Positions 1-42,530 of a stretch of DNA of 42,895 nucleotides are shown piece by piece. A program made the position numbers and the translations under genes. The number at the start of each line of letters is the position of its first letter. Positions within the stretch are counted from its first letter, which is position 1. The notes under the pieces were generated by a model. The model did no database searches, was not told where the DNA came from, and saw nothing but the letters and a program-made list of their open reading frames with translations. Origin of the DNA: an uncultured bacterium (lineage in GTDB: Bacteria; Latescibacterota; UBA2968; UBA8231); contig CALDFW010000031.1 of NCBI GenBank assembly GCA_937942165.1, forward strand, positions 1 through 42,895, read 5' to 3'.

Positions 1-603
1 TACTCCATCAACGGCTGGCACCGACACTGCCGAGGCATATACGACCTGCTGCACGAAAAGCGCATTCTCGACTACGCGGAAGATCTGCTGGGCCCCAATT
101 TGGTGAGCATCATGACGCACTACTTCAGCAAAGAACCGGGAGATGGGAAACAGGTGAGCTGGCATCAGGACGCCTCGTACTGGCCGCTGACGCCGAGCAA
201 GGTCGTCACCGTATGGCTAGCCATCGATGACGTGGACGAAGAAAACGGCCCTATGACGGTGATACCGGGATCGCATCTGCACGGTCAGATCCCCTTTGAG
301 AAGAGCACTGACGAGGAAAATAACGTGCTCGGCCAGAGCGTGCTCAATCCGCTCGACTGGGGCGGAGAGCCCGTACCCTTTACCATGCGCGCCGGTCAAA
401 TATCCATGCATACCGACCTGCTCCTACACGGCTCAGAGCCCAACCGCTCCACGAGGCGGCGCTGCGGTCTGACGCTGCGCTATATGCCGCCCGACGTGCA
501 CACGCGCGAAGCGGAACACGCACACGGCTATCTGTGCAGAGGAGAAGATGAGAGTGGATATTGGATCAGCTGGCCCGTGCCCGAGGGCGACTCAATCCCC
601 TAA
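1..603 (+). CDS. Phytanoyl-CoA dioxygenase (PhyH) family protein, 5'-truncated by window edge
   Basis: The reading frame is open from base 1, so the gene begins outside the window; the ORF-track start at base 100 is only an internal GTG or later codon. The visible product is a non-haem Fe(II)/2-oxoglutarate oxygenase of the PhyH superfamily. It shows the metal motif SWHQDASYW (HxD), the core strand TVWLAIDD, the PGSHLHG segment, and the distal histidine plus 2-oxoglutarate arginine in LLHGSEPN...RRRCGLTLR. It aligns along its whole visible length with the complete paralogue at 26653-27462 and starts at about residue 74 of that protein, so roughly 70 residues are missing. The TAA stop at 601-603 overlaps the stop of the convergent gene on the minus strand, leaving no room for a terminator between them. 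Substrate unknown; small hydrophilic metabolites are as possible as phytanoyl-CoA. Confidence 0.9.
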   Translation, partial: YSINGWHRHCRGIYDLLHEKRILDYAEDLLGPNLVSIMTHYFSKEPGDGKQVSWHQDASYWPLTPSKVVTVWLAIDDVDEENGPMTVIPGSHLHGQIPFEKSTDEENNVLGQSVLNPLDWGGEPVPFTMRAGQISMHTDLLLHGSEPNRSTRRRCGLTLRYMPPDVHTREAEHAHGYLCRGEDESGYWISWPVPEGDSIP

Positions 604-26652: not shown

Positions 26653-27462
26653 ATGGCCGAAATCGATGCCTATCCCGAACTCGCGCGCGACCTGCGCTTT
26701 TTTCCCGTTCAAAACGACGCGCCCACGACGCTGACGCCGGCCCAGATTGAACAGTTTAACGCCCGCGGCTATATCGCTCCCCTAGACGTTTACTCGCCCG
26801 AAGAAATGAGCGTCCATCGGGCGGCGTTTGATGAGCTGATGGAGGAAGCCAGCACCGGCGGCGGAAACGGCTATTCGATCAACGGCTGGCATAGGACACA
26901 CGCCGTCGTCCACGACATGGTAACTGAGGCGCGCATCCTGGACTACCTGCAGGATCTACTGGGCGAGGATCTAGTCTGTTGGGGAACGCACTACTTTTGC
27001 AAAATGCCGGGCGACGGCAAGAGGGTGAGCTGGCACCAAGACGCTTCCTATTGGCCCCTGACGCCGAGCAAAACAGTCACCGTCTGGCTAGCAATCGACG
27101 ATGCCGATGCGGAAAACGGGGCCATGCAGATCGTGCCGGGATCGCATCTACACGGGCAAATCGCGTTTGAGCAAAGTCGCGCCGAAGAGAACAACGTGCT
27201 CAACCAAACGGTCGTCGACCCACTCGACTACGGAGAGGAGCCCGTGCTGCTAGCCCTGCGCGCAGGACAGATGTCCCTGCACACCGACCTGCTCCTGCAC
27301 GGCTCAGAGCCCAACGCGTCTAATCGGCGGCGCTGCGGTTTGACCCTGCGCTTTGTTCCGGCAGAAGTGCGAGCACTTAACGGATGGAATGGGAACGCCG
27401 TCGTCTGTCGCGGCATCGATGCAGAAGGACACTGGCAGCACTGTCCGCGACCGCAGAGCTAA
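26653..27462 (+). CDS. Phytanoyl-CoA dioxygenase (PhyH) family protein
   Basis: 269 aa; AAGGAGAG lies just before the ATG. Fe(II)/2-oxoglutarate-dependent oxygenase, cytoplasmic. Iron ligands His128 and Asp130 are in SWHQDASYW, the distal His216 in LLHGSEPN, and the 2-oxoglutarate arginine is in RRRCGLTLRF. Other core segments are YSINGWHRTH, TVWLAIDDADAENG and PGSHLHGQ. It is the full-length paralogue of the truncated gene at the left edge of the window. Family members hydroxylate diverse small molecules; the substrate is unknown. It starts nine bases after the SCO1-like gene and its TAA directly abuts the stop of the convergent rhodanese gene. Confidence 0.93.
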   Translation: MAEIDAYPELARDLRFFPVQNDAPTTLTPAQIEQFNARGYIAPLDVYSPEEMSVHRAAFDELMEEASTGGGNGYSINGWHRTHAVVHDMVTEARILDYLQDLLGEDLVCWGTHYFCKMPGDGKRVSWHQDASYWPLTPSKTVTVWLAIDDADAENGAMQIVPGSHLHGQIAFEQSRAEENNVLNQTVVDPLDYGEEPVLLALRAGQMSLHTDLLLHGSEPNASNRRRCGLTLRFVPAEVRALNGWNGNAVVCRGIDAEGHWQHCPRPQS

Positions 27463-33845: not shown

Positions 33846-34604
33846 ATGGATAATACACTGCTCGATAAAGGCTTTACACCACAACCACTAAATGCAACAC
33901 ACTATCGGGAGCTAGACGATAACGGTTTCACTATACTAGAAAACGTTATCGACACAGCGTGGCTACACCAACTGCGCGAGAGGTTCGAAGATCTCGTCAA
34001 ATCGGAAGGTGAAAGGGGGGGCATAGAGGCTGGACAGATGAAAGGGGTCCGTCGCCTCGCCGACTTGGTTAACAAAGGCGAAGTCTTTGACGATATCTAC
34101 GTACACCCCTCCCTATTGACCGCAGCTTTACACATATTCCAACAGCCGTTTAAACTCGGCTCGCTCAACGGCCACGATCCCTTGCCCAACGATGGTTTGC
34201 AGGTTCTACACGGTGACGGCCCGCCTCCCGCGACCCCTGATGGTCCTTTTACTGTGGTTAATTCAATGTGGATGCTCGACGACTTTACTCGGGAAAATGG
34301 AGCCACGCGCATTGTACCCGGAACACATCGCAAAACAGAGAATATTGACGATTGTATTGACGACCGCATGGCCGATCATCCCAAACAGATTCACTTAGAA
34401 GGACCGGCAGGATCCGTCGCCGTGTTTAACGGCAGCATTTGGCACGGTTCGTACATCAATCGTTCAAGTCGTCCTCGCCGCACGTTGCATTGTGCATTCT
34501 TCTCGCGCGAACGCAAACAGCAAACCGACCAACGCGCGCATTTGCGTCCTGAAACAGCCGATCGCCTCTCTCCCCTAGCTCGCTATATTCTCGACGTTGA
34601 TTAG
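33846..34604 (+). CDS. Phytanoyl-CoA dioxygenase (PhyH) family protein, divergent copy
   Basis: 252 aa. PhyH-family Fe(II)/2-oxoglutarate oxygenase of a different subgroup from the two long paralogues. Iron ligands are probably His122 and Asp124 in LQVLHGDGP and the distal His200 in IWHGSYINRS, followed by a basic segment RPRRTLHCAF for 2-oxoglutarate. Core strands include FTVVNSMWMLDDFTRENG and RIVPGTHRK. The N-terminal helix FTILENVIDTAWLHQLRERF is typical. Substrate unknown. A GTTGAG lies upstream of the ATG as a weak ribosome binding site. The preceding 116-base gap contains only a 19-codon ORF and the gene may have its own promoter. About 260 bases without recognised features follow before the ABC transporter operon. 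Confidence 0.9.
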   Translation: MDNTLLDKGFTPQPLNATHYRELDDNGFTILENVIDTAWLHQLRERFEDLVKSEGERGGIEAGQMKGVRRLADLVNKGEVFDDIYVHPSLLTAALHIFQQPFKLGSLNGHDPLPNDGLQVLHGDGPPPATPDGPFTVVNSMWMLDDFTRENGATRIVPGTHRKTENIDDCIDDRMADHPKQIHLEGPAGSVAVFNGSIWHGSYINRSSRPRRTLHCAFFSRERKQQTDQRAHLRPETADRLSPLARYILDVD

Positions 34605-40751: not shown

Positions 40752-42485
40752 TTATTTGCCCTTCCGAACCACAGGTCCAGCCGGCGCCTCTCTGCTGTAG
40801 AGCGATCCACCGCGCTCGTACGAAACCGCTACTTCACCGTCGACCACATCCAGCCGCGGCACATTGTTCTGGAACACGTCGCGATCTGGACCGCGCATGA
40901 CTGCCAACTGCGCGTCACTCATGCCCTCGACTTCGGTTCCCCAACGATTTTCCGAATGCACCATCTCACCGCCAGAGCGGTTAAAGTTCTTCGACGAATA
41001 CTTGATCAGGATACCTCGTCGCGATACTTCGCTCTTCCACGCCAAGGCTCCGTGGGTCGTGCCGCCGTCGCCAAAGAAGAGCACATCGCCCGCCCGCATC
41101 TCCACGTGCTTAACCAAGCCCATATCGTCGTCGCAGGTGCGAATTCCCTGCGGCATTTTGTAATACGCCTTGTGGCTGCCCGGCACGCAGGCGAAGCCCC
41201 CGTCGCTAGCGGTGACATCGCGCAACTGCCAGGTTACCGTCACCGCCTCACAGTAGCTGCGACCGTTCTGGTAAATGTAGCCGCGGCCGGGATTGAGCGG
41301 CTCGTTGGCATCGTGCAGCGCGTGACCACTGGTCCCTTTGACGGCTACAAAACCCGTAGCGCCTCCCATACGCCCACCGCTGGCGCCCATCCAGTTGAGC
41401 CGGTGCTCGACCGCGGGGTGAGCCACCATCTTGCGGAAGGGGTTGCAATAGGGCTCGGGCAATTCCAGCAAACCGTCCAACAGCGGCCTTCCCGTGCCCG
41501 CCAAGGCTTGAGACCCCCGCGCCAGTTCCTCACCGACTTTAATCCGATCCTCAAAGCGATCAACCGCTTCGTTGGCCGCCTGCAGCCACTCCTCATTCAT
41601 CACTCCGCGCAGTACCAGATAGCCGTTGAGATCCCAGAAGTAGAATTCCTCGTGGTCAATACCGCTCTCGGGATCGACCTTCATGAAAGAAGGATGAAAG
41701 GTCTGGCGCGACGGATCGACTGCCGCCGTCTTGCCATCGGTGACAATAGCCGGCGGCGGGGTCGTCGCAGCATAGCCCGGCTTGTAGAGCGACGCTCTCT
41801 GCTCTTGGGAAAGTTCGGCGTGCCAGTCCGGCCGCGGCTCCTTTTGCACCCTATCCCCGCTACCCGCACTGCGGATCACGCCTCGCCCGACAAACTCATA
41901 GCTTAGCAACCGCTGTCTCCCCGAGCGCATACCCTGCAACGCAGCCAGCGCCACGATCAACAGATCGCCTGCCTTGAGCGGTGGACGATAGACCAGCCCC
42001 ATATCCGCTTCCCCCGTCGCCACGCCCTCTGGCGTCGGCACATAGCCTTTGTGGCTGCACGGCACCAGCGCGAAGCCGCTCTCTTCCGCGTCTTCGAGTG
42101 CCCACAGCACCCTCACCCCTTCGCTAAAACGCCGGCCATTCTGGTAGTAATAGGCCACTCCCGGATCGCGCGGCTCATTGCCGCCTAGTAACGGCGCGAT
42201 TGCATCGCAGGTTTCATCGCTCCAAATCTCCGGCGGCCGGTCGAGAATAAATCCCTGACCCACCAGCTGATTCAAATACCACACCAGCGTCGGGTGCACC
42301 AGCAGATCGCGGAAAGGCTCCCTCGTCCCACCGGGCCAAGCCAGCATGCCCTCACGTTGCCCGACTTCGGCGATCGACCCATTGAGTTGATCAACCTCTT
42401 CCGGGGTCAGCGCCCCAGATACGTGCAAATATCCGGCTACGTCAAAGCAGTAATTCTCTTCGTTGGTCATCGCTTCGCGGTCCAT
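40752..42485 (-). CDS. Tandem two-domain PhyH-family protein, N-terminal half apparently degenerate
   Basis: 577 aa from the ATG at 42485, preceded by AAGGGGG at seven bases; the track's longer start (42572) has no ribosome binding site. Two PhyH-like domains are visible, about residues 8-205 and 280-500. They align with each other: YYYQNGRRFSEGVRVLWAL and GYIYQNGRSYCEAVTVTWQL, then VPCSHKGY and VPGSHKAY, then DMGLVYRPPLKAGD and DMGLVKHVEMRAGD. The C-terminal half has a possible metal set, His391-Asp392 (ALHDANEP) and distal His478 (TTHGALAWKSEVSRRG), but the N-terminal half has ALQGMRSGRQR at the distal site and no histidine in the HxD region. The first domain is therefore probably structural or regulatory. 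Substrate unknown. About 75 bases separate it from DUF4345. Confidence 0.85.
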   Translation of the reverse strand: MDREAMTNEENYCFDVAGYLHVSGALTPEEVDQLNGSIAEVGQREGMLAWPGGTREPFRDLLVHPTLVWYLNQLVGQGFILDRPPEIWSDETCDAIAPLLGGNEPRDPGVAYYYQNGRRFSEGVRVLWALEDAEESGFALVPCSHKGYVPTPEGVATGEADMGLVYRPPLKAGDLLIVALAALQGMRSGRQRLLSYEFVGRGVIRSAGSGDRVQKEPRPDWHAELSQEQRASLYKPGYAATTPPPAIVTDGKTAAVDPSRQTFHPSFMKVDPESGIDHEEFYFWDLNGYLVLRGVMNEEWLQAANEAVDRFEDRIKVGEELARGSQALAGTGRPLLDGLLELPEPYCNPFRKMVAHPAVEHRLNWMGASGGRMGGATGFVAVKGTSGHALHDANEPLNPGRGYIYQNGRSYCEAVTVTWQLRDVTASDGGFACVPGSHKAYYKMPQGIRTCDDDMGLVKHVEMRAGDVLFFGDGGTTHGALAWKSEVSRRGILIKYSSKNFNRSGGEMVHSENRWGTEVEGMSDAQLAVMRGPDRDVFQNNVPRLDVVDGEVAVSYERGGSLYSREAPAGPVVRKGK

Positions 42486-42530
42486 ACCGCACCCCCTTGT
42501 GAAGATATATCTCCGCCAAACCAAGTCATC

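Follow-up and report, generated by a model that had tools for sequence, protein, structure and literature searches.

A tandem PhyH protein of Latescibacterota with an N-terminal half that lacks the metal ligands and a putative two-histidine oxygenase half

Ofd1/Tpa1/OGFOD1-type prolyl hydroxylases contain two double-stranded beta-helix domains, one of which is without metal ligands, as in the protein described here; they are eukaryotic, belong to a different branch of the 2-oxoglutarate oxygenases, and have the live domain first and the dead domain second. AspH and engineered FIH function with two histidine ligands. SyrB2-type halogenases carry an H-x-A/G signature, and chloride occupies the position of the missing Asp. 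For HygX, variation in metal coordination was reportedly described in the paper on its structure. This Streptomyces hygroscopicus protein (PDB entries 4xc9, 4xca, 4xcb, and 4zpi) is an oxidative-cyclization enzyme with a role in hygromycin B biosynthesis; it consists of a single domain (i.e., it has no fused dead domain) and carries an LHGG proximal motif without the HxD Asp. The titles of its PDB entries indicate structures with nickel or iron plus 2-oxoglutarate.

Pairing of a dead and a live oxygenase is described in fungi, where TlxI and TlxJ are Fe(II)/2-oxoglutarate oxygenases of talaromyolide biosynthesis (PMC12141560, PMC11880133). TlxI is catalytically incompetent and forms a strong dimer with TlxJ, whose kcat/Km is 0.02 per min per uM alone and 1.63 per min per uM with TlxI; loop B' of TlxI is required in substrate binding by TlxI-TlxJ (PMC12141560). 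TalA is a natural fusion in which the TlxI-like helper half is N-terminal and the catalytic half is C-terminal (PMC12141560). Together with TalA, the TlxI/TlxJ and TlxA/TlxC oxygenase heterodimers set a precedent for such pairing (PMC12141560, PMC11880133).

Here, we describe a tandem PhyH gene in a 42,895-nucleotide stretch of Latescibacterota DNA (the window, i.e., the whole stretch that was analyzed; contig C31 of genome G000). A first-pass annotation had placed a fused tandem PhyH protein at positions 40752 to 42485, which is correct, and did not give the strand, which is minus. The gene and its parts are as follows.

40752..42485, minus strand: tandem PhyH gene (P0001), 577 aa, with ATG at 42485 and stop codon at 40752-40754
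42492..42497, minus strand: Shine-Dalgarno-like AGGGGG, 6 bases upstream of the ATG
41691..42485, minus strand: N-terminal half (residues 1-265), a pseudoenzyme with a confidently modeled PhyH fold and no metal ligands
40755..41681, minus strand: C-terminal half, residues 269-577, PhyH domain of the H-x-A type with two His and Arg, and a C-terminal tail

The start at ATG 42485 is backed by MDREAMTNEENY, which is conserved in relatives from residue 1, and by the Shine-Dalgarno-like sequence. Open reading frames that overlap the gene on the plus strand are shadow frames and show no evidence of coding.

The PhyH family (PF05721) matches the 577-aa protein in two stretches (E = 4.9e-21; 76.4 bits versus a gathering score of 22), the stronger of which spans residues 284-491; the two homologous halves reported earlier are two PhyH domains. 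In a full-length fold model built on 57 related sequences (mean pLDDT, 86.2; pTM, 0.86; a single-sequence prediction reached a pLDDT of 31), the secondary-structure elements fall into two similar sets, with a linker near residues 236-270 between them; confidence is low in the tail, from about residue 557. These scores lend fair confidence to the way in which the halves are predicted to sit relative to each other. HygX, SnoK, AndA, and EctD were among the best PDB matches, as expected of the PhyH/2-oxoglutarate oxygenase superfamily fold. HygX ranked best both by fold (4xcb/4xca/4xc9; E = 4.2e-14) and by sequence (E = 1e-5; E = 1.3e-15 with a profile), at about 20% identity.

We cut 46 distinct fused proteins into halves, aligned them with 26 single-domain relatives, and counted residues per column. 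The positions that bear on catalysis are listed below.

42186..42188, minus strand: Leu100, in the proximal metal His column (His in 0/46 N halves)
41934..41936, minus strand: Gln184, in the distal metal His column (Q in 39/46 N halves)
41913..41915, minus strand: Gln191, in the column of Arg489 (R in 5/46 N halves)
41307..41315, minus strand: His391-Asp392-Ala393, the invariant proximal metal His, with Ala replacing the HxD Asp
41052..41054, minus strand: His478, the distal metal His, invariant in C halves and relatives
41016..41021, minus strand: Arg489-Arg490, of which Arg489 aligns with the 2-oxoglutarate Arg275 of human PHYH (profile alignment, 2a1x)

In these counts, which are drawn from related genomes and are not independent, the proximal column (His391) is His in 46/46 C halves and 0/46 N halves, the distal column (His478) is His in 46/46 and 1/46, and the 2-oxoglutarate column (Arg489) is Arg in 46/46 and 5/46, respectively. 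Since the ligand pattern holds in 46 distinct fused proteins, chance is excluded. The first-pass annotation had reported that the N half lost the distal His (ALQGMRSGRQR in place of TTHGALAWKSEVSRRG) and has no His at the HxD position; the alignment agrees, with His478 opposite Gln184 and His391 opposite Leu100, and adds the loss of the 2-oxoglutarate Arg (Gln191). The proximal column varies freely among the N halves (V, I, Q, E, S, T, A, L, and others). Arg192, directly after Gln191, is kept in 46/46 N halves, and the Arg490 column is retained in both halves. Having lost both His and the Arg, the N half cannot be an ordinary oxygenase, and the earlier view, in which the first domain is inactive and the one fused to it is putatively active, is well supported by the sequence. 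What had been named as speaking against that view, a complete metal site formed by other residues of the N half, was not seen at the sequence level: the only His residues invariant among the 46 N halves are His145 (in a GSHK motif common to the C half) and His264 (in the linker), and His64, kept in 43/46, is likewise common to the C half.

The second half had been assumed to carry an ordinary HxD motif, which is wrong, because it reads H-x-A (Ala393). At this position, the C halves have A or G in 28/46, N in 9, S in 7, and P in 2. Neither D nor E occurs there among the 46 C halves or their close single-domain relatives, the unfused alpha and beta PhyH proteins of the same class (separate proteins of about 285 to 300 aa). 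The C half therefore lacks the HxD carboxylate. Alpha and beta singles read HG[A/G/N/S] at the proximal motif, N or S being found also in the beta singles. The canonical HxD...H facial triad is thus present neither in the C half (no Asp/Glu) nor in the N half (His in 0/46 and 1/46). The C half instead resembles the HygX-like two-His PhyH group, with LH-x-[small], the distal His, the Arg, and its closest kinship to HygX, whose LHGG motif likewise has no HxD Asp.

Our preferred reading, to which we assign a probability of roughly 0.6, is a two-domain non-heme iron 2-oxoglutarate oxygenase formed by alpha-beta fusion, in which catalysis falls to the C half and the N half serves as its structural partner. 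The C half (beta) would use only His391 and His478 to bind Fe(II), as seems to be the case in HygX-like enzymes carrying HGG, and would hold 2-oxoglutarate with Arg489. We infer this putative binding of metal and 2-oxoglutarate, and we assume activity by analogy with HygX and other two-His oxygenases. The N half (alpha) would stabilize the C half and, in a putative pocket-building role, would help to build or gate the substrate pocket, as TlxI does for TlxJ.

The absence of Asp/Glu at the HxD position from every C half, alpha, and beta protein would also be compatible with neither half being an oxygenase, the C half then being a noncatalytic or differently acting binding protein. We consider this improbable, as the two His and Arg489 never vary, whether in C halves or in singles (46/46, 8/8, and 14/14), HygX with the same HGG signature has been solved with iron or nickel plus 2-oxoglutarate, and AspH and engineered FIH are known to work with two His. 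The prospects of a halogenase-like C half, holding chloride in the place of the missing Asp as SyrB2 does, are slimmer still. The window copy has Ala, and H-x-A/G in 28/46 C halves matches SyrB2-type halogenases, but the Ala/Gly of their signature would have to be kept across the family and halogenases need a small residue there, whereas 18/46 C halves have N, S, or P and beta singles have N or S. Moreover, the nearest solved relative, HygX, is an oxidative-cyclization enzyme.

Several conserved residues are specific to the N half, Arg106, Tyr70, and Gln73 among them. Three others show its former active-site region to be remodeled rather than randomized: Gln184 (39/46), Arg187 (44/46, where most C halves have Leu), and Arg119 (45/46, where most C halves have Ser). 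Glu104 and Arg192 are retained in that region. Such remodeling would suit an N half that is ligand sensing (allosteric) or substrate capturing, with a small and perhaps anionic molecule occupying the old active site and the N half then signaling to the C half or feeding it. We regard this role as possible but on the unlikely side, since the conserved polar residues may instead serve folding or the interface, and the proximal His column varies freely. The allosteric or substrate-binding duty proposed for the N half by the first-pass annotation is nonetheless plausible and close to our best model, in which the N half is the partner of a catalytic C half. The window copy reads MRSGRQR (41909-41936), with a small deletion after Gln184 that is common only to its nearest relative (L045), while most relatives read MRPWKGKGRQR or similar. 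A Trp in this loop is kept in 42/46 N halves and is missing in the window copy.

TlxI-TlxJ and TalA belong to the same superfamily, also combine a helper with a catalytic partner, and, in TalA, have the halves in the order seen here; judged from its residues, the window protein likewise joins an incompetent to a competent PhyH partner. They differ in what the helper has lost, reportedly the Arg and loop A in TlxI but both His and the Arg in the N half, and in that the C half is H-x-A without the HxD carboxylate. In a profile search, TlxI aligned to the N half and TlxJ to the C half, both weakly (E = 0.056 to 0.059). Because the match is weak (E of about 0.06), we treat the fungal system as the closest parallel in function and not as kin, and an origin of the fused bacterial protein independent of TlxI/TlxJ is more likely. 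It is conceivable, although we hold it doubtful, that the bacterial architecture evolved apart from TalA into one in which a ligand-binding dead PhyH domain, its pocket remodeled and conserved (Gln184, Arg187, and Arg119), exerts control over a two-histidine catalytic partner that lacks the carboxylate.

In a rooted tree of 65 sequences, the N halves form one clade and the C halves another; support is 100/100 for the grouping of the C halves with the beta singles and 90/69 for that of the N halves with the alpha singles. A larger quick tree supported the grouping of C with beta at 99.6 and that of N with alpha weakly, at 45. As the stem branch of the N halves is long (1.29) and the support joining them to alpha is moderate, a long-branch error is possible there. 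The C half descends from beta genes; for the N half, an alpha ancestry has moderate support. The C half is 42 to 52% identical to the unfused alpha and beta proteins, which carry all His and Arg ligands, unlike the N half. In-place duplication (i.e., N and C halves constrained to one clade) was rejected (p-AU = 0.013). Alpha and beta genes are adjacent and codirectional in 8/8 loci examined, a count biased by the picking of these loci as matches to the C half; three of the eight have the alpha-beta order, with gaps of 1, 41, and 43 bases. Since alpha and beta still lie side by side in relatives, the protein resembles one ancient gene-pair fusion, and the simplest history is that an alpha-beta pair fused and the alpha ligands were lost afterwards. 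At locus L085, several adjacent beta-type PhyH genes form a run with one alpha-type gene at its end.

In pairwise comparisons of fused genes (Nei-Gojobori method), dN/dS was 0.06 to 0.18 for the N half versus 0.02 to 0.10 for the C half. The N half is therefore constrained, less tightly than the C half, and this purifying selection indicates a kept pseudoenzyme and not decay. That the first half is decaying junk left by in-place duplication of one gene deserves hardly any credence: the N half evolves about twice as fast as the C half in most comparisons, but dN/dS is far below 1 in every pair, a fusion of single origin has been retained through 35/47 genomes of the class, and the duplication itself is rejected by the constrained tree.

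The distribution of fused copies was assessed with a protein-level search across 64 genomes of the phylum Latescibacterota (cutoff, E = 1e-150). Fused copies occur in 35 of the 47 genomes of the window's class, at up to six per genome, and at this cutoff in none of the 17 genomes outside the class. The fusion had been called uncommon in the family, which is only partly right, given that it is common in this class and has fungal precedents; our literature search found no reports on fused PhyH proteins of Latescibacterota. Fused proteins of about 500 aa, a more divergent group (40 to 48% identity), have the same pattern of a dead N half and a live C half; in one of its members (L081), the N half retains the distal His. 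When a species-level collection of bacteria and archaea (one genome per species) was scanned for close relatives only, the loci were all labeled Gemmatimonadetes or Latescibacterota, and some of them are class genomes already counted. Among plasmid sequences there were just two matches, both weak, covering 20% of the query. Four fused copies have one in-frame stop each (G034:C135, TAA; G029:C87, TAG; G002:C98, TAG; G036:C695, TGA) and may be pseudogenes or assembly errors. Two fused copies adjoin in some genomes (e.g., G028:C49 and G042:C427).

The window's genome contains 114 PhyH matches in 3.46 Mb, a very large expansion, and as the genome is 73.7% complete, its copy numbers are minimal. 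Three further matches lie in the window (37-462, 26758-27333, and 33915-34481). Most of the PhyH genes sampled in this genome are of the HQD type, with HxD/E in 25/37 frames (a rough pattern, some frames being counted twice). Frames with two PhyH matches on contigs C94 and C213 were considered as other tandem fusions, and they resolved into separate genes or were unconfirmed. In several longer PhyH frames, PhyH is followed by a repeat-like C-terminal region. The genome also contains a second architecture, recognized by eye, in which an HKD/HQD-type PhyH domain precedes apparent HEAT-type repeats, at the following loci.

L096, 1331-2821: PhyH plus HEAT-like repeats
L097, 1071-2525: PhyH plus HEAT-like repeats
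L098, 1334-2848: PhyH plus HEAT-like repeats
L099, 1008-2438: PhyH plus HEAT-like repeats
L100, 484-1815: PhyH plus HEAT-like repeats

No gene neighborhood of the fused copies is conserved beyond close relatives. Their neighbors (elongation factor G, DUF1028, a mandelate-racemase-type enzyme, GFO/IDH/MocA oxidoreductases, and a 2-hydroxyacid dehydrogenase) are too varied to fix a pathway. Enzymes of sugar or sugar-acid type near some copies, together with the kinship to HygX, weakly hint at a carbohydrate substrate.

These genes can be arranged by phylogeny into a series that begins with two neighboring oxygenase genes, both intact, and ends with a single fused protein, one half of it dead, that was kept across the class. 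With this series, it becomes testable why the dead copy of an enzyme comes to be required by a live one. The results also draw attention to a set of H-x-[A/G/N/S] oxygenases that lack the customary metal carboxylate, in a phylum that has received little study and is rich in PhyH genes.
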